IMG/VR virus record: IMGVR_UViG_3300017751_000146
Span: 1-28,945 of that record
Direction: 5' to 3' (one strand)
From: a virus
Length of the DNA stretch: 28,945 bases
The translations under genes were made by a program, and so were the position numbers. Below, in pieces: positions 14,820 to 28,915 of the stretch (positions within the stretch are counted from its first letter, which is position 1; each line of letters starts with the position of its first letter). The notes under the pieces were generated by a model. The model was not told the DNA's origin and did not search any database. It saw only the letters and a program-made list of their open reading frames with translations.

Positions 14820-16232
14820 ATGCATCAAGGTCCTAATTATAATTCTAATAACTTATATAGTGTTCAAAGAATACATGATGATAATGTCAATGCAGGTAAC
14901 TTTAGCACGACGCCATCTGGTCTTAAATATTATACACTTTTAATAACTCCAAATGACTACAGTCAACTAGTGTGTTCTGGTAACTTTACAATTGATGGTC
15001 TTTCAAGTTCTTGGGTTTATAATTCTGATTACCATCCAACTGGTAGCGGTAATGCTTGTTATCCTGTAAATCCACCATGGCACGGTAGTAGCGTTGGCCA
15101 AAGTGTAAGGCATTCAACTCCACACAGTTATATATTAAAAGGAGGCGCTGGCCCTAATGTTTGTTGGGGCCCTAATAGTAATAGTGGTCAAAATTTTATT
15201 GGCAATGGTACTTATAGGTTTAACGGTCCTTTTGAGTTCGACAACTCCGCTTACTGCGATGGAGCGTTTACAAGCTCAACAGACTCGGTAACTTGGAGAA
15301 AAATAATACTAATGGATATATACGAAAACGATCAAGGTAATTTGATAAATGATTTGTATGATCCTGCAACTTACTCAGAGAATTTAGAAACTTGGCTTCA
15401 GTATATGCCAGATCCTAACAACCCAAATTTTGTCCCATTAGAACCAACTCACAATGGTTACCCAAAACATATAAAAGTTTTTGTCTTTCCAGAGTATCAC
15501 GACGAAAACCCTTTACAGGCAACAATGGAAATTGATTTAGATATAGATTATGTAACACCTGTTCAAGGTTGTACAGATTCAGGGGCTAATAACTACGACT
15601 CTCTTGCAAGCACAAACGACGGTAGTTGTACATACCCACCACCACCACTTGCATTTCCACCTATAACAGTTAGTAGTGATATTACTTCTGCTAATCATAC
15701 TTTATACTCAGCAATGCAATTTAATGGTGGATATACAAATCCAAATGCGCTAACAGTTCTTGTTTTAGAAAATATCGTTTTTGATATTCCTATGCCAACT
15801 AACGGTACGCCTCCTTACAGTGAATACAGCATAGAATTATTAAATGATACTGTAACTGTATCTGGATCACCAACTGGTTCTGGATCGATACCCTCTGAAA
15901 TAATTCAGATTAATACTTTTGCATCTACTATTAATCCAACAGATCCATTATTATATGATGATATGCACCTTATGGACTTTACAGCTCAACTTCCCCCAGG
16001 TCCTAACTTTCCAGTTGAGCTTGACCAAGTAGGTGTTGAACCTGGAGATGGCGTTAGTACTTTTAATGCAGGAAGTTTTTATATTAACAAAGTGATTTTG
16101 TCAGTGCCGGGAACTCCTTCTAGTAGTTACTCTGTGCAAAACATTACGCTGCAAGTTTCAGCTGAAGATGCTAATGGTGATGTTGTTAATAGCTCTGTTT
16201 CAGTTGACATAGCGGCTGAACTAGGTATATAA
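14820..16232 (+). CDS. Tail surface protein with one GCTDP repeat, candidate receptor-binding protein
   Basis: I do not recognise the family of this 470-residue protein. Residues 1-245 are rich in Asn, Ser, Gly, Tyr and Pro, with scattered Cys (CYPVNPPWHG, GPNVCWGPNS, DNSAYCDGAF), suggesting a folded, exposed beta domain. Residues 250-270 are a single repeat of the type found at the end of the preceding gene (GCTDSGANNYDSLASTNDGS then C), followed by YPPPP. Residues about 285-470 are a Thr/Ser/Val-rich beta domain (ILSVPGTPSSSYSVQNITLQ) that looks like an Ig-like or adhesin fold. It starts 11 bases after the 1860-residue gene, in another frame. Sharing a repeat with that protein suggests the two are functionally paired on the tail. 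Receptor binding is an inference from composition and position. Confidence 0.6.
   Translation: MHQGPNYNSNNLYSVQRIHDDNVNAGNFSTTPSGLKYYTLLITPNDYSQLVCSGNFTIDGLSSSWVYNSDYHPTGSGNACYPVNPPWHGSSVGQSVRHSTPHSYILKGGAGPNVCWGPNSNSGQNFIGNGTYRFNGPFEFDNSAYCDGAFTSSTDSVTWRKIILMDIYENDQGNLINDLYDPATYSENLETWLQYMPDPNNPNFVPLEPTHNGYPKHIKVFVFPEYHDENPLQATMEIDLDIDYVTPVQGCTDSGANNYDSLASTNDGSCTYPPPPLAFPPITVSSDITSANHTLYSAMQFNGGYTNPNALTVLVLENIVFDIPMPTNGTPPYSEYSIELLNDTVTVSGSPTGSGSIPSEIIQINTFASTINPTDPLLYDDMHLMDFTAQLPPGPNFPVELDQVGVEPGDGVSTFNAGSFYINKVILSVPGTPSSSYSVQNITLQVSAEDANGDVVNSSVSVDIAAELGI
15567..15629 (+). repeat. Fourth GCTD...NYD...DGSC repeat, in the next tail gene
   Basis: A single unit encodes residues 250-270 of the candidate receptor-binding protein and is followed by a YPPPP linker, as in the third unit upstream. 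Its presence in a different gene and frame indicates that the module was copied between, or independently joined to, two neighbouring tail genes. Confidence 0.88.
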
Positions 16233-16249
16233 TTAAACATTAAAACAAT

Positions 16250-17545
16250 ATGATAATACAAGCATTTAACATAGACATGGGTAATAAATCTAGAAATTCT
16301 GTTTCTAGAAGTTATGAAGTTGTTGGTGAGCCAGAAGCTGTTTTTCATATTATAGTTCAAAACGCAAGTGGGCACTATTACAATTTTCCAGAAAACACTA
16401 TTATAAATCAAGAAGCAGGGATTTTTGCCCCTGCAGCAGCTTTTTCTACAACTCCAAGTAATTTATTTAACCAAAAAATACCTAGTTCTGGTGTTTATAA
16501 TGGAGCTATAACTCTTCCAGTTGATAACACTGATACTCATTATATAATAACAGTTATTGCTGGTAATGAAACAACTTTTGATTTAAATGTTTTTAGCAAT
16601 GAAAAAATTTTTATTAGCGATAAAATAAACGCTTACAACGTAACTGGAGTTACTTTTTCAATAACACACTCAAATGCCGCTGTTGTAGAGCCATCTGGAA
16701 ATAATGCTCCAATAGTTTTTAAAGGCAAAAGTAGTCAAGTTGATAGATCAAATGTAAATAACGTTACAAAAATAAACTGGCCTTTCACCTTAAGCTCTAG
16801 TTCAGCTAGTATAATAAGGCAGCCTATAGTAGATGATTTTGAATTTACAACTACAAAAACAACCCGTAACATTAGAACCACTACTGGTGCAACAACATCG
16901 ATAGAGTTGGCAGATGTAACTGGTCTTAGTGTGGGAATGGATGTTAAAGATGCAGAAGATCAAAGTTTAGGTCAAATAACTAAGATTGTACTTGGGTTTA
17001 AAGATTTTCAAAACTCAACTGACGGTAATCAAATTTATAAAATACCAATAAAAATAAACGATGATGGTGATGGTGTTGTTAATAGCACTGCTGGAACAAT
17101 AGTTGTTAGCACTGCTGTCAACTGGGGCGCTAGTGGTCAGTTAACTTTTACAGGCAAAGGCTCTTCTGCTAGTAATATTTTCAACAAAACTAGATTTAAA
17201 ATAAAAAATTTTAAAATAGAAATAGACCCTGTAGTAACAACAACAGACGCGGCGGTTTCAAATAGCACAACAATACCTGTAGCAAGTACAGATGGTATAA
17301 AAGTAGCTGACACTGTTTTAATGACTGGTATAGGTGTAACATCAACTTCACCGCACGTAGACGCTGTAAGCTCTGGTGTTAATGTAACGGTTAGCTCTGC
17401 GCAAACAATTGAAGACGGACAAACAGTAACTTTTACTGGTAGTAGTAGGTCTGGTAAAATTACTGGTGAGTTAGAAGTTTTAGAATATGGTGATAGTAAT
17501 ATAACTTTAGATTTTAATTTTGATAACATTTTAAACGTAAGCTAA
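16250..17545 (+). CDS. Beta-rich tail structural protein with two small repeat modules
   Basis: This 431-residue protein is almost entirely Thr/Ser/Asn/Val-rich, as in tail fibres and other virion surface proteins. A central block (NNVTKINWPFTLSSSSASII, residues about 170-190) looks conserved. Two related modules lie at residues about 207-235 (TTGATTSIELADVTGLSVGM) and about 328-365 (VTTTDAAVSNSTTIPVASTD). Both read as 'switch on at a strand, then GMxV' repeats, a pattern common in marine phage structural proteins. No enzyme motif is seen. The stop is one base before the next gene, so the two are probably translationally coupled. A tail fibre or baseplate-like role is inferred only from composition and from lying between the tail and ejection genes. 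Confidence 0.65.
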   Translation: MIIQAFNIDMGNKSRNSVSRSYEVVGEPEAVFHIIVQNASGHYYNFPENTIINQEAGIFAPAAAFSTTPSNLFNQKIPSSGVYNGAITLPVDNTDTHYIITVIAGNETTFDLNVFSNEKIFISDKINAYNVTGVTFSITHSNAAVVEPSGNNAPIVFKGKSSQVDRSNVNNVTKINWPFTLSSSSASIIRQPIVDDFEFTTTKTTRNIRTTTGATTSIELADVTGLSVGMDVKDAEDQSLGQITKIVLGFKDFQNSTDGNQIYKIPIKINDDGDGVVNSTAGTIVVSTAVNWGASGQLTFTGKGSSASNIFNKTRFKIKNFKIEIDPVVTTTDAAVSNSTTIPVASTDGIKVADTVLMTGIGVTSTSPHVDAVSSGVNVTVSSAQTIEDGQTVTFTGSSRSGKITGELEVLEYGDSNITLDFNFDNILNVS

Positions 17546-17546
17546 C

Positions 17547-17915
17547 ATGCAAATAAAACTAACATTTAATACCGAGCTAAACATATCTTTATCTATAGGA
17601 GACATTGTGTGGTACACTCCCGTTACTATTACTGGTGGTCATGAGGTTTCAAACACAAATTCAATAATAAAATTAGGTGAAGTTGAAAGTGTTGATCATA
17701 AAAATAAAATTGTTTTAATTAAAAAACCTCACGATCCTTTAAACTATGCTGGTATATCATTAACTCAAAATGATTTTGTAATGTTTTCTAAGCCAAACTC
17801 ATTTAACACTAGTAGTATAAAAGGTTATTATGCTAAAGTTAGATTAGATAATGATTCAACAGAAAAAATAGAACTTTTTGCGGTAAGCTCTGAAATATCA
17901 GAAAGTAGTAAATAA
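17547..17915 (+). CDS. Small virion-associated protein
   Basis: The 122-residue protein has strand-rich residues 1-75 (SIGDIVWYTPVTITGGHEVS, then IIKLGEVESVDHKNKIVLIK) resembling a small beta-barrel. Its C-terminal segment is IKGYYAKVRLDNDSTEKIEL then FAVSSEISESSK. I recall very similar endings (GYYA.V...N.S..K.ELFAV.SE..ESSK) in small structural proteins of many marine tailed phages, where no precise role is known. It begins one base after the previous gene and has no signal peptide or membrane segment. The annotation as a structural or assembly protein rests on that recalled wording and the position. Confidence 0.68.
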   Translation: MQIKLTFNTELNISLSIGDIVWYTPVTITGGHEVSNTNSIIKLGEVESVDHKNKIVLIKKPHDPLNYAGISLTQNDFVMFSKPNSFNTSSIKGYYAKVRLDNDSTEKIELFAVSSEISESSK

Positions 17916-17952: not shown

Positions 17953-18939
17953 ATGTCAACATTAAACAATCCATTTAGACCAAATATATTTAGTCCTACT
18001 CAAGGAGATGGTGGTGGTTATTATGAAACAAACCCTTTTAGCTATTCTAGTAATTATAATTTTTTTAATCAAGATTTATCTTTTGCTAACACTTTTCGCG
18101 AACGAGGTGATATTTTTAGTAATCCATTTTCTAGTTCTAGTGCACAAGGTATTTTTGGAAAATCTGGTGGAAGTATATTTCAACAAGGTGGTGGAGGTAC
18201 AGCTACAGATCTTATTGGCGACACTAAAGTAGGTCTTCCAGCTGCAGACGCAGCGGCTGCCGGTGGAGGTGGTATGTTTAGTAACATGTCTTCAGCTCAA
18301 CAAATGCAAATGGCTGGAGGTATCGGTGGTATTATACAGGGTTTAGTAGGTAGAAAGAAAAGAAGAGCTGCACAAAGAAAAGCTAAAAAAGAATATGAAA
18401 AGCAAAGGTCTTTATATCAAGCTCTAGATACTAGTAATTTAGCAGCTGGTTTTGGTAATGCTTTTGAAAATATGGAAAACACATACGAGGATATGACTGT
18501 TAATCAACAACAAGCACAGTTTATGGCCCAACAAAATCAACAAAGTCAAGCAAACACTATGCAAGCATTAAGAGGTGCTGCGGGTGGTAGTGGTATTGCT
18601 GGTCTAGCACAGATAATAGCTAATCAAAGTCAATTAGCAACTCAAAAAGCTTCTGCAAGTATAGGGTTGCAAGAAGCACAAAATCAAAAGTTTGCTGCAC
18701 AAGGTGCTGCACAAAATCAAATGGCAGAAAGAAAAGGTGAGTACCAAGCTCAAGCACAAAGATTAGCTGGTGCTAGAGAAGCTAGAGGTTTAGATTATCA
18801 AAAGCAAGAAATGGAATTAGGATTTGCAATGCAAGAAAAAGCTGCTGCAGATCAAGCTGTGCAAGCCGCAAATGCTGCTTTATACGGTGGTATTGGATCA
18901 TTAGCAACTCAAGCTTTAACAGGTGGCTTTGGCGGGTAG
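17953..18939 (+). CDS. Probable internal virion (ejection) protein with glycine zipper and coiled coil
   Basis: The 328-residue product has three zones. Residues 1-95 are Phe/Asn/Ser/Gly-rich and low in complexity (NPFSYSSNYNFFNQDLSF). Residues 118-133 are a glycine-spaced hydrophobic helix (MAGGIGGIIQGLVG) followed by a strongly basic stretch at 134-147 (RKKRRAAQRKAKK), as in membrane-inserting peptides. Residues about 150-310 are Gln/Ala-rich, coiled-coil-like (MEELGFAMQEKAA-type helices), ending in a second Gly/Ala-rich patch (YGGIGSLATQALTGGFGG). The layout matches small ejection proteins (T7 gp14-like) that form part of the DNA channel through the host envelope. It precedes two larger probable internal proteins, which supports this. 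The role is inferred; composition and order are seen. Confidence 0.65.
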   Translation: MSTLNNPFRPNIFSPTQGDGGGYYETNPFSYSSNYNFFNQDLSFANTFRERGDIFSNPFSSSSAQGIFGKSGGSIFQQGGGGTATDLIGDTKVGLPAADAAAAGGGGMFSNMSSAQQMQMAGGIGGIIQGLVGRKKRRAAQRKAKKEYEKQRSLYQALDTSNLAAGFGNAFENMENTYEDMTVNQQQAQFMAQQNQQSQANTMQALRGAAGGSGIAGLAQIIANQSQLATQKASASIGLQEAQNQKFAAQGAAQNQMAERKGEYQAQAQRLAGAREARGLDYQKQEMELGFAMQEKAAADQAVQAANAALYGGIGSLATQALTGGFGG

Positions 18940-18967: not shown

Positions 18968-20695
18968 ATGGCAAAAAAACAATCTACAAGACCTAACTTA
19001 CTAGGTATACAAAAACAAATGTTAGACGCTGGAAGAGATACTCGAGCAGAGTCTTTCATGAAAGGCGCTATGGGCGCTTTTGCTGTTAACATGGCTGAGA
19101 CTGAAAAGCAAGAGGCTATGATGGAAAAGCACATGGAAGATCTTGGTGGAGTAGCAAACATTGTAAAACTACCTATGGAACAAAGAGGTCAGGTAGAAGA
19201 GTTTTTAAGAACAAATAGAGATGAGTATAATACTTTGGCAGAGCAATACATGAAAACAAAAGACCCTGCTATTAAAGATAAAATGAACGCTATAAAGTAT
19301 AAGTTTCAAACGCTAGACAGCGAGCTTAGTAAGTTTGCAGCTAGTAAAGCAGAATACATGCATGATTACGAAGAAGGTAATTTAATGAAAGGTGGGAGTT
19401 TTGCTAAAGACAATTCTTTTTACATGGGTATGTACGGTGATCCTAAAACACAGTTTACTATTGGTGAGACTGGTGAGATGTCTTTTACTGTTAACGGTGA
19501 AACAAAAGCTTTTAAAGATGTAGGTAGTCATACGTTAAGAAATTACGAAGCAGAGAAAAATATTGACACTTTGTTTGGTACAGCTGCAGATTTAAAAGTT
19601 AGTGGTAAAGCGTTTGATAAAAATAGAATTACTAACAACTTTGTTAATGGCCATAAGAGTATTTCAAGAAATGATTTACAAGCTATACTACAAACAGATT
19701 TAACAGGTGATGGTGACAAACCTTCATTTATGGATCAATGGGCGTCAGGAGGTTTAGGCGATGAGTTTTACAATGGTGTTGATAAAAACAATATAACAGA
19801 AGAAGATGTAAAAACTTTATTAAAAGACAAGCAGAGAGGTTTAGATTTAATGGGTAAATATGTTGGTAATATTTCACAAGGTATATATGATGATGGTAAA
19901 CTAGATGAAACTATAGCTTTGACTAGAAAAGCTAAACAAGCTCAGATAAATGCTTCTAACAGAGCAAATAGAAAAGGTAGTGATGGAGGTGGAGATGGTA
20001 GTTTTACAGAAAAAGTTAAAATAGATGGGTTGCCAAATACTTACGTAGGACCAGAAGAAAGAAACAAAAGAAGAGATTATATAACAAACGAAGATGGTCC
20101 ACAAGATTTTTCAGGTGCTTATGGAGATTACAAATGGGATGAAAAAGAAGGTATGTACATATTAAATGGTGATAAAGAAAATATGAAAACACCTTGGGAG
20201 GTAATGCAAGATGAAAAATTAGATAAAAGAGGTGATTCTTCTGCTGATTATGGCGCAAACCCTATGAGTATACAAAACGCTTCTTTAAAACAAGATGGCA
20301 CAAGAGTTGCTGGTGGGTTAACTGCAAAAATGGTTGTAGGTGATGATGACACTGTAAAAGCTAACTTAAATGCTATTCTTCCTAAAAACAATCCTAACAA
20401 CTATTATTTTGACGAAAAGCCTGATTATATTTTTGGTATGGACCCTGGTTATGAAGACCCAACACTAAACGCTGTTGTATTAAAAGATGGTAATGGAGAA
20501 GTTGTTAAATATGAAGACGGAACACCTATAACTATATATACAGATGGTGGTGGTGGTTTTGAAAATACAAAAAATGAAGTGCAAAATTCAATTATAGCAT
20601 TTAATACTTGGATGGATAATCAAGAAGACTTTGGGCTAGAGTCTGGGCAAAAAGGACAAGACACTGAACCTGTAGATACAAAAGAAAAACAATAA
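18968..20695 (+). CDS. Probable internal virion protein of unknown function
   Basis: The 575-residue protein is not recognised as a named family. Residues 1-135 are helical and Met/Glu/Lys-rich (ETEKQEAMMEKHMEDLGG, then RGQVEEFLRTNRDEYNTLAE), probably coiled coil. The middle and C-terminal parts are Asp/Gly/Lys-rich and rather polar (GRDGGGDGSFTEK-like linker near residue 345, FGMDPGYEDPTLNAVVLKDG near 485), ending in a charged tail (TEPVDTKEKQ). There is no signal peptide, membrane segment or enzyme motif. It lies between the small ejection-type protein and the giant enzyme-bearing protein, with three bases to the latter, which suggests that it is packaged with them as a cargo or ejection protein. 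The alternative is a tail-hub component. Confidence 0.6.
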   Translation: MAKKQSTRPNLLGIQKQMLDAGRDTRAESFMKGAMGAFAVNMAETEKQEAMMEKHMEDLGGVANIVKLPMEQRGQVEEFLRTNRDEYNTLAEQYMKTKDPAIKDKMNAIKYKFQTLDSELSKFAASKAEYMHDYEEGNLMKGGSFAKDNSFYMGMYGDPKTQFTIGETGEMSFTVNGETKAFKDVGSHTLRNYEAEKNIDTLFGTAADLKVSGKAFDKNRITNNFVNGHKSISRNDLQAILQTDLTGDGDKPSFMDQWASGGLGDEFYNGVDKNNITEEDVKTLLKDKQRGLDLMGKYVGNISQGIYDDGKLDETIALTRKAKQAQINASNRANRKGSDGGGDGSFTEKVKIDGLPNTYVGPEERNKRRDYITNEDGPQDFSGAYGDYKWDEKEGMYILNGDKENMKTPWEVMQDEKLDKRGDSSADYGANPMSIQNASLKQDGTRVAGGLTAKMVVGDDDTVKANLNAILPKNNPNNYYFDEKPDYIFGMDPGYEDPTLNAVVLKDGNGEVVKYEDGTPITIYTDGGGGFENTKNEVQNSIIAFNTWMDNQEDFGLESGQKGQDTEPVDTKEKQ

Positions 20696-20698
20696 TAT

Positions 20699-23600
20699 AT
20701 GGCACAATATAAAGACGCTGACGGAGTAGCATACGAAGAATCTGATATTCGTGGTTGGGCTTTGAGAAGAGGTATTAGTTTTGAAGAATACCTTGATGTA
20801 AAAGGCTTGACTTATGACAAGATGGATTATGACGATGCTGATTTTAGCGACAAGCTAACGTCTATTGGTGCTTCTACTGCTTTAGGTTTTGTTAGTTTTG
20901 CTGAAGGATTAAGTGATTTAAAAGATGGTTTGATATATACCATGTCTACTGCCGGTGATGATTTAAACGCTAAACAAAAAGAAATAGCTATGAAGGCTGT
21001 TAAAGATAATTATGGCGGCGATCCTTTTGAAAAATATATGGAAAAGCTTGAAAAATCAAAACTTGAGTTTGACGAGCAAAGCATAACAGAAACATTTAAA
21101 GAAGGTGATTATTTTGAAGGAGGTTTTAGAGCTGTTGAAGCAGGTTTACAAAGTATGCCATCTATAATAGCAGCTGGATTTGGTGTGCCTGGATTAATAG
21201 GGTTAGCAGCATCAACTGCTGGTAGTAAATATGAAGAAGAGTTTGAGTTAACACCTGAAGAAAACGCTGGTACATTACTTTTTAACGCGGCTGGTTCTGG
21301 TGTAATTGAAGCTACTTTTGAACTTGCAACAAGAGGTCTTTTAAAAAGATCTGGTTTAGTCGCAGGTTTAGGTGGAAACGCTAACATGAAGTTAGCAGAA
21401 GAGATAGTTAGGGGTGGTGCTGCTAGTATTGTTAAAAACATTGGTAGTGGTATGGCTTCAGAAGCGGCATCAGAAGCTGCTACAGAGCTTACGTCTACAA
21501 TGTGGGATCAAGTTACTTTAGGTAAAAAAATTGATTGGGAAAGAAAAATATATGAAATAGCTGACGCTGGTATTGTTGGTGGTTTGGTGGGTGGTGTAAT
21601 GGCAGGCGCTGGTGAAGTTAATAAAAAGTCTAGAGCTTCGCAAGAAATGGCTTATGGCATACTGCAAGATAATCAAACTGGAAAACAACTAGCTGAAAAA
21701 CAAGAACAATTAGCCGCTTTAATATTAGATCAAAAAGGTACAAGACCAAAACCAAAGTCAGAAGATCCTGACGGTGAGTTTGAGCTAATAGAAGACAAAA
21801 TAAATGAAGTCTTGTATGAAATGGGTAATTTAAAACAAAGATCTATACAAGGTTTAAGAAACTTAAATAAAGATGAGTTTGATGTTTATTTTAAAAACAT
21901 TAAAAAAGCAAGGCCATTAAAGAAAATACTTGAAAGTGACAAGTCTGCAGTTATAAAAGATAGTGTTCAAAAAGAGTATGACGCTTTGATGGAAGAAAAC
22001 TTAGGCATGCTACAACAAGCTAGTGATAGAAAGTTAGATCAAAACTTAAGCGAAGCAGAAAGTAGAGCTTCACAAAGAAACGGTGAGGTAAGAGTATTTG
22101 AAAGTCAAGACGAGTATATAGAAGCTGTTAGTGGTGTTTCTGCTAAAAAAGTTTTAAATAAAGAAACTGGTAAAGAAGAGTATAGCCAAGCTTTCAAAGA
22201 AGCGGCTAGAGAGCATAGGTATAGCGATGGTAAAATAGTAGATGGTGTATCTTTTATAAACAAACAAACAGCTAAAAATTTAGGATCTGTGTCTGTTGGT
22301 TCACACGAAGTTCTTCATTCTATTATGGATAAATATGTTAGAAACGAAGATGGAACCACTAAAGATGACGCTATAGAGTTAATAGATGATATGTTGTCTG
22401 ACATGTCAAAAGGTGATAGAGCTATACTACAATCACGAATAGATAAAAACTACAGGTATAACAAAGACGGTAGTGAAAAAAATAAAAATGAATATTATGA
22501 TGAATATTTAAATGTTTTACACGATGCTATTGTTAAAAAGCAAATAACATACAATAAAAATTTTGATGCAATAGGTGGTAGGTTTAATAAAATATTTAAA
22601 AAGTTTGGTTATGGTGCTATTGACTTATCTTCAGGTAAAGGTTTATTTAATCTTATAAGAACATACACTAAAGCTATTGAAACAGGTGAAAGTACATCTG
22701 AGCTAGACGCTATAATAGAAGAGTCAAAAGGCTTTGCTATTACTGGTGAAGAATCTGGTAGAAAGTCTGTTGATTTAGGTTCAGAAGATGATGGTATACC
22801 ATTAAATGAAAAAATAGATCCGTTAACTAACAATGCTAAAACAAAAGAAGAGTTTCAAGCAGGTGGTATAAGAGGTGCTTTTGCTAAAGTATACCAAGGT
22901 ATAGTAGATGGTAGTTTTGACAGGCTTTTTGGTAGTGTTAGTGAACCTCAAAAAGAAATACAAAGAGAAAGTCTTGCTGATAGACTTATAAATTATGACC
23001 CAGCTAAATCACCTAGTCTTTTTGCTTGGATGGAAGGTAATAAGAGAAAAGGAAAACAAGGTAACGTTGAATTTGCTGCAAAAGATGCTAAAAAGAAATT
23101 AGCAAAAGATAAAGAAAAAAAGACTACAAGTCTTGACGCTAGAAAAAGAAGTAAAGATGGTGAAGTAAAGCAAGACGTAGAAGATGTTTCTGCAGATCCT
23201 GAACAACAATTAATAGCTAAAGAAAAAAGAGAACAGCAAGAAAAAATAATTAAAGCTAAACAAAAAAAGTTTGAGGCATCTTTAGGTATAAGTACTGATT
23301 TACAAAACAAAATTAAAGATGTAGTTACAAAGGTGTTTGGTGGTAAACTCCCGCCTGTAACAAGTCCTAAATACAGACAAGCATTAAAAGAAGAGTTTGT
23401 AAATGAAATAGGTAAAAAAATAGAAGAGATTTTTGGTGTAGAAGCTAACTATGATAACTTTATAGAAAATTATTTTGAAGATGTTATATTTCCAAACTTA
23501 TCAAATGCTAGATTAATACAAATAGAAAGACTTTTACCAAAAGGTGAAAAAATATTTGTAAGCAAAAGAAGAATAACAAAAGTTAAAGAAGTTAGAAAGC

Positions 23601-26600
23601 TACAAGAGCAAGGCTTAATAGATAAAAAAGTTAAACCAGCAAGCGGACCAAACCTTGTGCAGAAAATGAAGCTTAACATGAATAAAGTTAAAGACTTTTT
23701 TAATCCGCCAGAAATAAATCCTAAAACGGGTAAAAAAAGTGGTTTAAGAGGCACTAGAAAAAGAGCTTTAGCAGAGGCAATAGCAGAAGAGCTAGCGTTT
23801 AATCAAGTGCAAGAGGTTTTAAACAGTGAAGATGTTTTAAACAAGGTTGAGCAATTAAACGAGCTTTTTGAATATGACAAAGTTGATAACTACAAAGCAG
23901 AAGTAGTTAGACAAATGGAAAGAGGTGGTAGAAACTCTAATAGCTTAAATGATTTTATGAAAGTTCAAGACGTTTCGCCAGAAGCATTAATGAAATTACT
24001 TAGTGAAAAAGCTATAATTTTAGAAAATGAAAACAATGAGCTTTATAATGTTTTAAAAAACGATGCAGAGGAAAAGTATGGCGGTGAACAAGAATATATA
24101 GATAATCAAGGTTTTTTATCAAGACTTGCTGAAAATATAGATAATCCTGCGGTTCAAAAGTTTTTAAAAGACAAAGACTACATGTTACGTAAAGTAGTGA
24201 ACGGTAAAAAAGTTTACAACGAAGAAGGTGCTGTAGATCATGTAGACAACTACAATATACCTTTACTTGGTTTTATGCCAGCTTGGATGGGACAAAGAGA
24301 TCTACGTATGCAAAAGAACAAAAAAGGTAAACATATGTTCTTGCATAGAGCTGCTAAAATGGATAGTAGTAGAGGTGCTTTTGGTGGTTTACTTGCTTTA
24401 AGAAAGCAAAATATGGGTAGGTGGAAAAACGCTTTGCTTACTAAAATGGGCTTAAACAAAGGTATGTCTAAGCAGACTAAAAGACTTTGGGCTGAGTTTA
24501 GAAAAGTAGAGGGTGATTTAGAGCTTATGGAATCTTCAATGAACGAGCCTGGTGGAGTATTAAGAAGAGTTAAAGAAGTTCAAAAAATGAACAAAACTGC
24601 TAAAGAGAAAGCAGAAATACTTAGAAAAGAATTTAATCCAAAAGCTTTAGCAGCTGCGCAAGCATTGTTTAAAGCTTATAACTCAAGTATTCAAGACTGG
24701 GTGAATACACAAGTTAGTTCTGGTAAAATGACTAGAGAAGAAGCTATAGGTTATGTTATTAGAGACAAGCAGATGAACACTAACTTTAACAAAGGTGAAA
24801 GAGCTTTAGCCGCTTTAACCTCTGTATATCTAGTTGACGGTCCACAAAAAGTTAGCAAGCAAAAAGGAGAGCACATGGTTGACTCTGCTACAGTTTCTGC
24901 TGCTACGGTAGTGAGTATATATAATAATACTTTTTTACAAGATGCAGACAACATATTAAAAGGTTTTGAACAAGCTTTATTACCTAAAGAAGTAGCTGAT
25001 AGATTAGACAAGCTAGGTGGTAGAAACAGTCCATTAGGTAATTTCAGGTTTTTAATGGACCCTGTAATTGGTAAAAGTGTATATGATTTAGCTAGTGGTA
25101 GAACCATGTATGATGTTATGATTGATCAACATGGAAGAGATCTTGCTAATGCGGTTAAAAATGTTCACGACTTTAGTAGAGCTAGCAATAGTTTAAATAA
25201 AATTTATAAAGCAGAGCAGTTTCAGCTTGATCCAAGCAGTCCTGTAAGAGGTATGAGCGTTTTTGATTTTGACGAAACAGCTGGTATAAGCGATAATTTT
25301 ATTACAGCAACTAAAAACGGTATTGTAAAAACAATAGATTCAGCTGATTGGCCACTAGTTGGTGATGCAATGGTAAAAGATGGTTGGTCAATGGACTTTA
25401 CTGATTTTAATAAAGTTACAAATGGTAGACCAGGACCTTTAATGCAAAAGCTAAAAAATCAAATTAAAAAGTATGGTGCTGAAAACGTATTTATATTAAC
25501 AGCTAGAGCTAAAGAAAGCGCACCGGCAATACACGCATACTTAAAAAGTGAAGGTATTAATCTACCAATAGAAAATATAACGGGCTTAGGACAAAGTAGT
25601 GGTGAAGCTAAAGCTGATTGGTTTGTTGATAAGTTAGCAGAAGGTTATAATGACATTTATTTTGTTGATGACGCTATGCCTAACGTTAAAGCTGTTGACG
25701 ACTTACTAAGTCAGTTTGATATTAAGTCAAAAGTTGTACAAGCTAGAGCTAGAAACAGCAACAGTTTATACGATCAAGTAAATGAAATGCTTGAAATTAA
25801 TGAAGGTATAGGTAGAAATGTTGTTGTTGACGAAGCTTCGGCTAAAGTTGAAGGTGCTAAAAAAGGTAAAGGTATAGGAGCTAGATTTTTTAATGTGCCA
25901 GGAGCAAACGACTTTATGGGGCTAATGTACACTATAGCTAATGCAAAAGGTAAACTTGGTGAATCTCAAATAGCTTTTTTTGAAAACAACTTATATAGAC
26001 CTTATAGACAAGGTGTAGATAGAATAAATAGGTTAAAACAAGGCGTTTCTAACAACTACAAAGCTTTACTAAAATCTATACCTGGTGCAGCTAGTTTGTT
26101 AAAAGAAACAGTACCTGGCACAAGCTTTACATATGACACTGCTGTTAGAGTTTATTTATATAACAAAGCTGGTTACGAAGTGCCTGGTATGAGCTCTGAA
26201 AACGTACAAAAATTAGTTGAAGCTGTAGAAGCTAATAATGATCTGCTAACTTTAGCTAGTGGTGTTAATGCCATTGTTGGTAATTCAGATGGTAATTACA
26301 TGCAACCTGATAACGACTGGTTAGGCAGCACTATATTATCTGATTTAGATGCTTTAACAAATGATGTTGGTAGAAAACAACACATACAAGAGTTTATAGA
26401 AAATAGAAAAAAGATGTTTGGCGACTGGAAAAACGGTAAACTTGATGGACCTTTAATGAAAAAGCTAGAAGCTTTGTATGGGCCTGATTATGTTGACGCT
26501 TTAAATGATGTGTTGTGGCGTATGGAAAATGGTAACGCTAGACCAGCAGGTACTAGCAAGCAAGTAAACCAATGGCTTAACTGGCTGCAAGGTTCTATTG

Positions 26601-27835
26601 GTGCTATTATGTTTTTTAACACTAGATCAGCTATACTACAAACATTATCAACATTTAACTTTATAAATTGGGGCGATAACAACCCTATCAAAGCTGCTAA
26701 AGCATATGCTAATCAAAAGCAGTTTTGGAAAGACTTTGTAATGATATTTAACTCTGACTTTCTTAAACAAAGAAGAGGTGGTTTAAAACTTGATGTAAAC
26801 GAAGCTGCTTTAGCAAAAGCAATAAACCAAGGTGGTCAAAGTAAAGTAAAAGCTGCTTTAGCTTATTTGTTAAGAATAGGATTTTTACCTACTCAAATGG
26901 CTGATAGTTTTGCTATTGCTGCTGGTGGTGCTGCGTTTTACAGAAACAGAGTAGATACGTACTTAAGTCAAGGTATGTCAAAGGCAGATGCTGAAGCAAA
27001 AGCTTTTCAAGATATGCAAGACGCTTCTGAACCAGTTCAGCAGTCTTCTGATCCATCACTTATATCACCACAACAAGCTAGTATATTAGGTAGAATGCTT
27101 TTAGCTTTTCAAAATGTAACAATGCAATACACCAGACGTATGAAAAAAGCTGTTATTGATTTGGCTAAAGGTAGAGGTGATTTTAAAACAAATGTATCTC
27201 GTATAGTTTACTATGGCGCTGTACAAAATTTAGTGTTTAACGCATTGCAATCAGCATTGTTTGCTTTAGCTTTTGATGATGAAGAAGATGAAGTAAAAAT
27301 TAGAAGAAGAGATAGAGTTGCAAATGGTATGGTAGATTCTATTTTAAGAGGTTTAGGTATACCAGGCGCTGTGTTTGCTACAGGTAAAAATGCTATATTA
27401 GAATACGCAAAGCAAAATAAAAAAGGTTGGAACTCTAATCAAACATACACACTGCTACAGCTATTAAACATTTCACCGCCAATAGGTAGTAAGGCTAGAA
27501 AAATATACTCATCTTTTCAAACAGAAAAATTTAACAGTAAAGTTATACCTGAGATGTCACTTTGGAATTTAAGTAACCCAAGGTATCAGTCAATAGGTAA
27601 TGTTGTTGAAGGTATTTTTAACGTACCTATGGGTAGAACAATTAATAAAATAAACAACATTAAGCAAGCTTTAGATTCTGAAAATGATACTTGGCAAAGA
27701 ATAGCTTTAATGTTAGGTTGGAACACTTGGGATCTTGGCGTTAAAGACAAAGAGATACAGAGAATAAAAGATGAAGTAAAAGGAAACAAAAAAACTAACA
27801 AAAGTAAAAAATCGTTTAGTAAAAAACAATTTTAA
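20699..27835 (+). CDS. Giant injected polyvalent protein: metallopeptidase-like and HAD phosphatase domains
   Basis: At 2378 residues this gene takes a quarter of the window. In order: a helical N-terminus with two Gly-rich hydrophobic patches (about 158-175 and 291-306, GIVGGLVGGVMAGAG); an HExxH site at H536-E537-V-L-H540 with a candidate third zinc ligand at E602; a Lys/Glu-rich coil (about 780-870); conserved-looking helical blocks (about 870-970); a HAD domain at about 1518-1672 with all four motifs (D1523-F-D1525-E-T1527, T1601, K1638, D1657-D1658); and from about 1700 a C-terminal region with QQSSDPSLISPQQASILGRM and a hydrophobic helix (2175-2192), resembling large polyvalent-protein-associated domains (LPD38-like). 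The family is known to be carried in virions and delivered into hosts. HAD substrates may be nucleic acid ends or phosphoproteins; this is not established. Confidence 0.8.
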   Translation: MAQYKDADGVAYEESDIRGWALRRGISFEEYLDVKGLTYDKMDYDDADFSDKLTSIGASTALGFVSFAEGLSDLKDGLIYTMSTAGDDLNAKQKEIAMKAVKDNYGGDPFEKYMEKLEKSKLEFDEQSITETFKEGDYFEGGFRAVEAGLQSMPSIIAAGFGVPGLIGLAASTAGSKYEEEFELTPEENAGTLLFNAAGSGVIEATFELATRGLLKRSGLVAGLGGNANMKLAEEIVRGGAASIVKNIGSGMASEAASEAATELTSTMWDQVTLGKKIDWERKIYEIADAGIVGGLVGGVMAGAGEVNKKSRASQEMAYGILQDNQTGKQLAEKQEQLAALILDQKGTRPKPKSEDPDGEFELIEDKINEVLYEMGNLKQRSIQGLRNLNKDEFDVYFKNIKKARPLKKILESDKSAVIKDSVQKEYDALMEENLGMLQQASDRKLDQNLSEAESRASQRNGEVRVFESQDEYIEAVSGVSAKKVLNKETGKEEYSQAFKEAAREHRYSDGKIVDGVSFINKQTAKNLGSVSVGSHEVLHSIMDKYVRNEDGTTKDDAIELIDDMLSDMSKGDRAILQSRIDKNYRYNKDGSEKNKNEYYDEYLNVLHDAIVKKQITYNKNFDAIGGRFNKIFKKFGYGAIDLSSGKGLFNLIRTYTKAIETGESTSELDAIIEESKGFAITGEESGRKSVDLGSEDDGIPLNEKIDPLTNNAKTKEEFQAGGIRGAFAKVYQGIVDGSFDRLFGSVSEPQKEIQRESLADRLINYDPAKSPSLFAWMEGNKRKGKQGNVEFAAKDAKKKLAKDKEKKTTSLDARKRSKDGEVKQDVEDVSADPEQQLIAKEKREQQEKIIKAKQKKFEASLGISTDLQNKIKDVVTKVFGGKLPPVTSPKYRQALKEEFVNEIGKKIEEIFGVEANYDNFIENYFEDVIFPNLSNARLIQIERLLPKGEKIFVSKRRITKVKEVRKLQEQGLIDKKVKPASGPNLVQKMKLNMNKVKDFFNPPEINPKTGKKSGLRGTRKRALAEAIAEELAFNQVQEVLNSEDVLNKVEQLNELFEYDKVDNYKAEVVRQMERGGRNSNSLNDFMKVQDVSPEALMKLLSEKAIILENENNELYNVLKNDAEEKYGGEQEYIDNQGFLSRLAENIDNPAVQKFLKDKDYMLRKVVNGKKVYNEEGAVDHVDNYNIPLLGFMPAWMGQRDLRMQKNKKGKHMFLHRAAKMDSSRGAFGGLLALRKQNMGRWKNALLTKMGLNKGMSKQTKRLWAEFRKVEGDLELMESSMNEPGGVLRRVKEVQKMNKTAKEKAEILRKEFNPKALAAAQALFKAYNSSIQDWVNTQVSSGKMTREEAIGYVIRDKQMNTNFNKGERALAALTSVYLVDGPQKVSKQKGEHMVDSATVSAATVVSIYNNTFLQDADNILKGFEQALLPKEVADRLDKLGGRNSPLGNFRFLMDPVIGKSVYDLASGRTMYDVMIDQHGRDLANAVKNVHDFSRASNSLNKIYKAEQFQLDPSSPVRGMSVFDFDETAGISDNFITATKNGIVKTIDSADWPLVGDAMVKDGWSMDFTDFNKVTNGRPGPLMQKLKNQIKKYGAENVFILTARAKESAPAIHAYLKSEGINLPIENITGLGQSSGEAKADWFVDKLAEGYNDIYFVDDAMPNVKAVDDLLSQFDIKSKVVQARARNSNSLYDQVNEMLEINEGIGRNVVVDEASAKVEGAKKGKGIGARFFNVPGANDFMGLMYTIANAKGKLGESQIAFFENNLYRPYRQGVDRINRLKQGVSNNYKALLKSIPGAASLLKETVPGTSFTYDTAVRVYLYNKAGYEVPGMSSENVQKLVEAVEANNDLLTLASGVNAIVGNSDGNYMQPDNDWLGSTILSDLDALTNDVGRKQHIQEFIENRKKMFGDWKNGKLDGPLMKKLEALYGPDYVDALNDVLWRMENGNARPAGTSKQVNQWLNWLQGSIGAIMFFNTRSAILQTLSTFNFINWGDNNPIKAAKAYANQKQFWKDFVMIFNSDFLKQRRGGLKLDVNEAALAKAINQGGQSKVKAALAYLLRIGFLPTQMADSFAIAAGGAAFYRNRVDTYLSQGMSKADAEAKAFQDMQDASEPVQQSSDPSLISPQQASILGRMLLAFQNVTMQYTRRMKKAVIDLAKGRGDFKTNVSRIVYYGAVQNLVFNALQSALFALAFDDEEDEVKIRRRDRVANGMVDSILRGLGIPGAVFATGKNAILEYAKQNKKGWNSNQTYTLLQLLNISPPIGSKARKIYSSFQTEKFNSKVIPEMSLWNLSNPRYQSIGNVVEGIFNVPMGRTINKINNIKQALDSENDTWQRIALMLGWNTWDLGVKDKEIQRIKDEVKGNKKTNKSKKSFSKKQF

Positions 27836-28915
27836 ATGAAAAAACTAATAATAATACTATTAACAACTTTAATTGCATGTGCTGCGCCAAAAGAGTGTTG
27901 CTCACAAAACTTTAAAAAGTATTTTAAATTTGCTACGTTTTATGCTGCGGCTAACGGTGGTAATTCAGTTTCAGATGTAGATGTATTTTCTGTAACCAAT
28001 GGTTTAGAAACTGTAACGGTAGAAACACCATATGATTACAACTTAGCTTTAGGTATACGTAAAATAGCTAGGTTTGGTTATGAAAACAGAGCTAGTACAT
28101 TTTATGATGGTACAGAGGAGTCATGGTCAGACGGTGCTAGTATTGGTAAAGTACGTGGTTTAGAATTTTTATTTGAAGTAGATTACAAAAGACAACAAGG
28201 TAACGAATATTTAGACCAGCATCACTTTATAAGATTTGTTGGCGATGATGGTTGTGGTGAAAAATTTTGTTTAAAACATTTCATACTAAAAGGTGAATAC
28301 TTAGAAGATGGTTTTGCTGATATTAAATATGTTGAAACGTCAGAAAGATATAGATATAAAGTTAATGACAAATTGTCCTTTAATGCTGGGCTTGCTCAAA
28401 GGTTATCCGAACCGTACGGATATGACCCCTTGGCAGAGTGGATGCTAAGCAATGGCAATATACATTACACTTATCTAGCACTACAAGAAGGCTACAATGT
28501 CGATGTAGCTGCTAGTGAGTATTTTTCTCCAGATGGAGAACTCGTTGCTACAAGCAAAGAGGTTTGGGAAGAGGTTGTTATACCTACAATGTTAGCTGAT
28601 TATACTGAAAGAAAACGTAATGAATTAAACCAAATAATACAACACTCTGTTGTTCTAGGTTTTGATTACTATCATTATACAAAATCATTTTGGTCGCATG
28701 CTTGGGCTAACTTAATGCCTTGGCATTATAATGATAGCGGTGAGTTTTCTTATCACACTTATAATGGTGGTCAATGGTTAGATTACAATGGTGGTTTAAT
28801 ACTTGGTTACAAGATGAATAAATCTTTAGGTGCATTTGTAGAGGGTAAATATAACAAATACTGGAATCGTGAGTGGTATGACTTTAAATTTGGAGTAAAC
28901 TACGTAATCTTTTAA
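27836..28915 (+). CDS. Secreted outer-membrane beta-barrel-like protein or lipoprotein
   Basis: The 359-residue product starts with a signal peptide: two Lys, a hydrophobic run (LIIILLTTLIA), then either a lipobox L12-I-A-C15 or a type I cut after SQ at 23-24, the Bacteroidetes-favoured ending. The mature protein shows alternating polar and aromatic strands, most clearly at the C-terminus (GGLILGYKMNKSLGAFVEGK, then YDFKFGVNYVIF). It ends in Phe, the usual signal for the BAM barrel-insertion machinery. Residues about 190-270 are helical and may form a loop or plug. It starts immediately after the giant gene (TAA directly followed by ATG), so it is translationally coupled. It could alter the host surface (for example superinfection exclusion), or be a virion protein. 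The envelope location is well supported; the role is open. Confidence 0.72.
   Translation: MKKLIIILLTTLIACAAPKECCSQNFKKYFKFATFYAAANGGNSVSDVDVFSVTNGLETVTVETPYDYNLALGIRKIARFGYENRASTFYDGTEESWSDGASIGKVRGLEFLFEVDYKRQQGNEYLDQHHFIRFVGDDGCGEKFCLKHFILKGEYLEDGFADIKYVETSERYRYKVNDKLSFNAGLAQRLSEPYGYDPLAEWMLSNGNIHYTYLALQEGYNVDVAASEYFSPDGELVATSKEVWEEVVIPTMLADYTERKRNELNQIIQHSVVLGFDYYHYTKSFWSHAWANLMPWHYNDSGEFSYHTYNGGQWLDYNGGLILGYKMNKSLGAFVEGKYNKYWNREWYDFKFGVNYVIF

Follow-up and report, generated by a model that had tools for sequence, protein, structure and literature searches.

A predicted giant ejection protein in a Pervagoviridae-like podovirus carries a conserved HAD phosphatase domain, which houses a kinase in some relatives

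Introduction

Is the giant protein encoded in IMG/VR virus record IMGVR_UViG_3300017751_000146 delivered into the host cell with the phage DNA, and what would its enzyme-like domains do there? Ejected giants are a phage's first contact with host defences, and the enzymes that they carry as cargo are mostly unknown. Phage T7 ejects gp14, gp15 and gp16, the last of which passes through the inner membrane (PMC8954989); in phage DEV the gp16 role is taken by a giant RNA polymerase that acts as an ejection protein (PMC10925440). For polyvalent proteins, it has been proposed that their metallopeptidases (MPTases) cut their own chain into working pieces (PMC5512222). An initial annotation of the locus had described a probable injected polyvalent protein that combines a protease-like site and a HAD phosphatase domain with an LPD38-like C-terminus. 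Here, this description was followed up by searches for relatives, profile comparisons and structure prediction.

Results

The giant gene closes the structural module of a Pervagoviridae-like podovirus

The stretch of DNA analysed (the window) comprises 28,945 bases of the virus record. The structural genes, among them those for terminase, portal and a capsid-type protein, are colinear with their counterparts in the Flavobacterium elemo phages, Maribacter phage Panino, the Manatee Spring uncultured podovirus and, within Pervagoviridae, the Cellulophaga phages phi38:1 and phi40:1. With the core structural genes (portal, capsid and others) in this order, the window is, as judged from sequence, the structural module of a Pervagoviridae-like podovirus. 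The giant ORF is open from its ATG to its stop codon over 20699-27835 (+) with zero internal stops, confirming a single chain of 2,378 residues (Table 1). In all compared phages a giant gene closes the structural module, with products of 1,691 aa in phi40:1, 1,829 aa in Panino, 3,694 aa in elemoF and 3,859 aa in the Manatee phage. Homology was not detectable between the 575-aa product of the preceding gene (18968-20695) and phi40:1 gp100.

Two further observations concern neighbouring genes. The family profiles of the genes at 14820-16232 (+) and 17547-17915 (+) match inside the large phi40:1 gp97 (MS/MS-proven), which suggests that these phages differ in how one structural protein is divided or fused. 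Directly 3' of the giant lies a gene for 359 aa (27836-28915, +) with a lipoprotein-like N-terminus, which gave no match to a known family and is kept in about 30 related loci (58-67% identity on some MAG contigs).

Table 1. Features of the giant ORF and of the two genes preceding it, in window coordinates.
Feature	Position	Strand	Remarks
328-aa protein, T7 gp14-like position	17953..18939	+	related to phi40:1 gp99 (MS/MS-proven)
575-aa divergent protein, phi40:1 gp100 position (T7 gp15-like position)	18968..20695	+	placed by position
Giant ORF, predicted ejection (polyvalent) protein	20699..27835	+	final gene of the structural module, 2378 aa
N-terminal mini-domain, ~40 residues, strand-strand-helix-helix	20699..20821	+	from model, pLDDT about 68-83
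Membrane-prone helical segment, residues 112-333	21032..21697	+	common to Panino CDS69 and elemoF gp18; phi40:1 gp101 by family profile
Metallopeptidase-like domain, residues 455-700	22061..22798	+	HEVLH 536-540, Glu602
Middle region, residues 701-1500, mostly without assignment	22799..25198	+	parts common to some relatives
Predicted HAD phosphatase domain, residues 1510-1685	25226..25753	+	D1523, D1525, T1527, T1601, K1638, D1657, D1658
Conserved all-helical C-terminal module, residues 1690-2350	25766..27748	+	fold as in other phage polyvalent proteins

The N-terminal segment is related to that of a proven virion protein

Hydropathy analysis placed membrane-prone segments at residues 149-175 and 284-302 near the N-terminus and one more at 2173-2192, in agreement with the membrane-prone helices noted initially. 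The hydrophobic helical segment (about residues 112-330) was matched by BLAST in Panino (7e-11) and elemoF gp18 (2.6e-7), and a family profile of the N-terminus matched phi40:1 gp101 (E = 2.9e-16) and the Manatee giant (2.6e-14) as well as Panino and elemoF. In the phi40:1 record, gp99, gp100 and gp101 are labelled 'structural protein, annotation based on experimental MS/MS proteomics analysis', and the homology of this segment by family profile links the giant to gp101, whose place in the virion is proven. Neither the HAD profile nor the C-terminal one found anything convincing in the giants of phi40:1, Panino, elemoF and Manatee, and presence in the virion is therefore argued from position and N-terminus only; that gp101 resembles the giant in no more than the N-terminal segment counts against the ejection reading. 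As regards the properties of an ejection protein of the T7 gp16 type, the giant has the cassette-end position and the membrane segments, and virion detection is confined to phi40:1 gp101, which has the N-terminus in common with it.

Small N-terminal modules similar to residues 1-40 of the giant were also seen in relatives L020, L035, L037 and L050 (loci carry L numbers), seemingly doubled in L037; a packaging or docking signal is a possible role for them.

Relatives form a mosaic family under purifying selection

Searches of cultured phages by tblastn, with the giant and with its HAD domain, returned no matches, and relatives were therefore taken from a scan of IMG/VR viral contigs, in which 49 loci with relatives were found, 47 of them with a long ORF (2,003-4,137 aa). 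Since single-sequence searches of Pfam and PHROGs with the whole giant recognised nothing usable, the case rests on these relatives; a weak CdiI_2 match in the giant (E = 0.056) was dismissed. The family is a mosaic, with 650-850 C-terminal residues retained by all members and a variable N-terminal half. Comparison with three close relatives gave dN/dS values of 0.14-0.17 for the HAD domain, 0.12-0.20 for the metallopeptidase region and 0.10-0.13 for the C-terminus, with 0.30-0.60 for the linker at residues 331-454, indicating purifying selection on the domains. The giant ORF of L004 is broken into frames of 2,190 and 219 aa (16501-17157), probably by an assembly frameshift. The same giants also occur on MAG contigs L059-L069, assigned to Woesearchaeota, Maricaulis, Aliivibrio and others, which are probably misbinned phage contigs.

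A single HExxH site is conserved

Exactly one HExxH was found in 45 of the 47 relatives, against a shuffling expectation of 0.0125 per protein, and this single site per relative is not due to chance. The HExxH with a downstream Glu that had been noted in the giant was borne out as HEVLH (536-540) and Glu602, both conserved in relatives; in fact, H536, E537, L539, H540, E602 and Y656 are invariant among 23 aligned metallopeptidase regions. The Peptidase_M78 profile matched four of these 23 members (best E = 4.9e-5), and the best result of a PDB sequence search with the metallopeptidase profile was MJ1213 (0.045). In the structure model (pLDDT mostly 54-88), HEVLH and E602 lie on two helices (536-546 and 602-612) after a small sheet, which is the zincin/gluzincin arrangement of an HExxH and a third-ligand Glu on a downstream helix. 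The structure prediction suggested for residues 460-680 thus recovered the helices bearing both motif parts, in a low-confidence model that Foldseek matched to no PDB entry; owing to the poor model, this fold search, run with residues 1-720, gave no useful information. A related HExxH domain is present in elemoF gp18, and HExxH is absent from phi40:1 gp101 and the Panino giant.

The HAD domain retains all catalytic motifs at a fixed place

All five catalytic residues listed in the initial annotation (D1523, D1525, T1601, K1638 and D1657) were found at their positions, together with T1527 and D1658, giving the complete HAD set of DxD(x)T in motif I, Thr in motif II, Lys in motif III and Asp-Asp in motif IV. 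The domain is kept in 40 of the 47 relatives, immediately before the C-terminal module, and its catalytic residues are invariant in 38 aligned sequences (29 HAD domains and nine with inserts). Relatives matched PF00702 (3.5e-5) and HAD_2/HAD in Pfam, and the window's own domain matched DUF2608 alone (6.5e-4, below the family cut-off). The model of this region shows alternating strands and helices in a Rossmann-like arrangement with the motifs carried on strands, and Foldseek aligned it with HAD structures in the PDB at probabilities of 0.93-0.98, the individual E-values of which were above 0.1 and not significant. Family profile and model agree on a HAD domain with a Rossmannoid core, as had been anticipated for residues 1510-1680. 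When PDB sequences were searched with the profile of the HAD domain, ResA thioredoxins alone were returned (E = 0.18), and these were set aside as chance.

Among named phage families, phrog_415 comes nearest; it was matched by 23 of the 29 members (best 1.4e-6). Its scores were 8.6e-26 for the phosphatase domain of T4 PseT, 1e-8 for the HAD of relative L009 and 1.1e-3 for that of the window, for which another search gave 0.087. This match suggests a 3'-end phosphatase, but it does not establish one because phrog_415 also matches all 14 of the 14 control genomes; a single-sequence hhalign of the HAD with T4 PseT, run with E. coli HADs as comparison, covered 15 columns. Second in rank was phrog_1238, a family that bears the label phosphoheptose isomerase and was matched by 14 members (5e-5), and the Foldseek neighbours include the Legionella effector Ceg4 (probability 0.97).

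Seven relatives lack the HAD domain, and in six of these Pfam recognised no domain in its place. Domains without identification are inserted within or just after the HAD in L026 (14522-17608) and L029 (13901-16858), and a stand-alone homologue (a 178-aa frame) was seen on a Flavobacteriaceae MAG contig, L070.

Seven relatives carry a kinase within the HAD domain

Seven relatives (L017, L021, L023, L027, L031, L042 and L047) carry an insert of ~200 residues with a complete Walker A motif between HAD motif I and the cap, in a single open frame. The AAA_33 and Zeta_toxin profiles recognise all seven inserts (with best values of 4.5e-14 and 4.4e-10, respectively), the best solved structure is zeta toxin (3.9e-5), and phrog_505, 'polynucleotide kinase', was matched at 4.2e-8. 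A specific kinship with T4 PNK was dismissed, as the control shikimate kinase AroK outscored T4 PseT; one relative in BFVD is named UDP-N-acetylglucosamine kinase. The nesting of what the profiles assign as a P-loop kinase of the zeta-toxin/PNK class inside a HAD domain is new here. On a tree built from the C-terminal module, without the columns of the insert, the distribution of carriers requires at least three changes, so that the insert was gained or lost repeatedly. The window's own HAD is without a kinase insert. Stand-alone homologues of the kinase were found in marine T4-like phages, and in Methylophilales phage Melnitz-3 (L073, 3450-4749) such a homologue adjoins a gene with a HAD-like DxD motif.

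The C-terminal module resembles polyvalent proteins by fold

The LPD38-like C-terminus of the initial annotation did not hold at the sequence level: the Pfam LPD38 profile (PF18857) matched neither the window nor any of 10 relatives, even with E-values up to 1 admitted, hhalign of the C-terminus against LPD38 members was negative, and membership was dismissed as both Pfam and profile comparison failed. The Panino giant matched LPD38 at 1.8e-5, below the cut-off, and most LPD38 matches in the genomes resemble low-complexity repeats. The likeness to polyvalent proteins did stand at the level of fold, the all-helical C-terminal model being matched by Foldseek to many phage proteins (E-values around 1e-5 to 1e-7) that are named 'ART-PolyVal' or 'large polyvalent protein associated domain'. 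None of the polyvalent families in Pfam matched the giant. Its chain thus combines multiple predicted enzymatic domains, recognised by motif and conservation, with a C-terminal module recognised by fold, and the model supports the view that it works like polyvalent proteins and shares a fold with them.

Discussion

Apart from LPD38, the initial annotation was mostly right: the locus encodes a giant of the ejection/polyvalent type with a conserved HAD domain that houses a kinase in some relatives. Its claim of injection found indirect support in the ejection-slot position, the N-terminal segment in common with MS/MS-proven gp101 and the C-terminal fold match. Because the giant holds the slot of phi40:1 gp101 and has an N-terminal segment in common with it, we consider it probable that it is a large inner-virion protein, ejected by a Pervagoviridae-like podovirus that infects Bacteroidota, which delivers a metallopeptidase and a phosphatase and works in the manner of T7 gp16 or the virion RNA polymerase of DEV and N4. 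The products of the genes starting at 17953, 18968 and 20699, the giant being the last, would be packaged and expelled ahead of the DNA, with the N-terminal membrane segment crossing or lining an envelope channel. The HExxH/Glu domain would act as a metallopeptidase, most likely cutting the giant itself and thereby releasing its domains, or else host proteins. The HAD domain would enter the cytoplasm in active form and there hydrolyse phosphomonoesters, most likely those of nucleotides or of nucleic-acid 3' ends, the latter a reasonable but weakly backed guess, and so help the incoming genome to survive. The all-helical C-terminus would be the conserved module that serves delivery or packaging in phage polyvalent proteins. 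These roles are inferred from gene position, domain conservation, intact motifs, purifying selection, the N-terminus in common with gp101 and the C-terminal fold match.

In a narrower version of this explanation, the HAD domain, in relatives jointly with the kinase nested in it, would be an end-healing enzyme of the PNKP type that enters along with the DNA. Like T4 PseT, it would remove 3' phosphates and, with the kinase, re-phosphorylate 5' ends where host defence nucleases have cut tRNA or DNA. The standing of phrog_415 as best named phage family of the HAD (23/29 members) and the kinase matches to phrog_505 and Zeta_toxin/AAA_33 point this way, but we entertain it only tentatively in view of the 14 matched control genomes, the 15 columns aligned with PseT, the better score of AroK than of PseT for the kinase, zeta toxin as its best solved structure, the lack of an RNA ligase partner in Pfam scans of relatives and the kinase-free HAD of the window. 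A still bolder proposal is that an end-healing enzyme built into a virion ejection protein, and freed by its own metallopeptidase, repairs defence-cut nucleic acids at entry, before phage gene expression; the HAD would be the 3'-phosphatase, joined in some relatives by a P-loop kinase nested at the cap position, with the insert as a swappable cassette. As a whole we regard this as rather unlikely. The phosphatase could also act on host metabolism or signalling at entry, with small molecules, nucleotides, sugar phosphates or phosphoproteins as substrates and a zeta-like UDP-GlcNAc kinase nested in relatives. In favour are the second rank of phrog_1238, Ceg4 among the structural neighbours, zeta toxin as the best PDB match of the kinase and the name of a relative in BFVD, yet each of these matches is weak and family-level, and we see this alternative as conceivable rather than likely.

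That the HAD and HExxH domains lie within a large structural protein, and that the HAD is absent from seven relatives, would also suit mainly structural or regulatory parts of an ejection channel without a role against host defences; the invariance of the catalytic residues wherever the HAD occurs in the aligned set, under strong purifying selection, makes such a role unlikely. It is highly improbable that the giant is a non-virion protein made late, such as a lysis or takeover factor, that merely adjoins the structural genes: virion detection is known for gp101 and not for the giant itself, but the two have position and N-terminus in common, and the slot is constant across cultured relatives.

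Under the preferred reading of an ejection protein that delivers enzymes, about 40 related marine phages keep a predicted phosphatase domain with intact motifs at one fixed place, and some nest a kinase inside it. The HAD is a defined domain of 180 residues with point mutants indicated, suited to expression and assay, and cultured relatives are available for studying delivery.

Among known systems, gp101 of phi40:1 and phi38:1 (Pervagoviridae, Callevirus) is one of the closest, placed at the end of a colinear structural module and with a homologous N-terminal membrane segment by family profile; gp101, itself a virion protein by MS/MS, differs from the giant in its 1691 aa without HExxH, HAD or a matching C-terminal module. 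Elemo gp18 and Panino CDS69 have the slot and a BLAST-matching N-terminal segment, and elemo gp18 also a related HExxH domain, whereas both lack the HAD and a clear C-terminal match; the LPD38 match of Panino is below cut-off. The general design recalls T7 gp16 and the Schitoviridae virion RNA polymerase (DEV gp71), large ejection proteins that are accompanied by two smaller ones and combine membrane segments with exchangeable enzyme domains (PMC8954989, PMC10925440), although sequence homology with these was not detected and neither a transglycosylase nor an RNA polymerase was found in the giant. With polyvalent proteins (MPTase-PolyVal and LPD families; PMC5512222) it has in common a giant phage chain, a zincin-like metallopeptidase beside other enzymes and the C-terminal fold; 'phosphatase' and 'polynucleotide kinase' are absent from the main text of that survey. 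T4 PseT (Pnkp) is approached through a weak match to its HAD 3'-phosphatase family, phrog_415, and, in some relatives, through a similar class of kinase. PseT, however, is a soluble enzyme with kinase and phosphatase in tandem, whereas in the relatives of the giant the predicted kinase is nested within the HAD domain of a virion-type giant protein.
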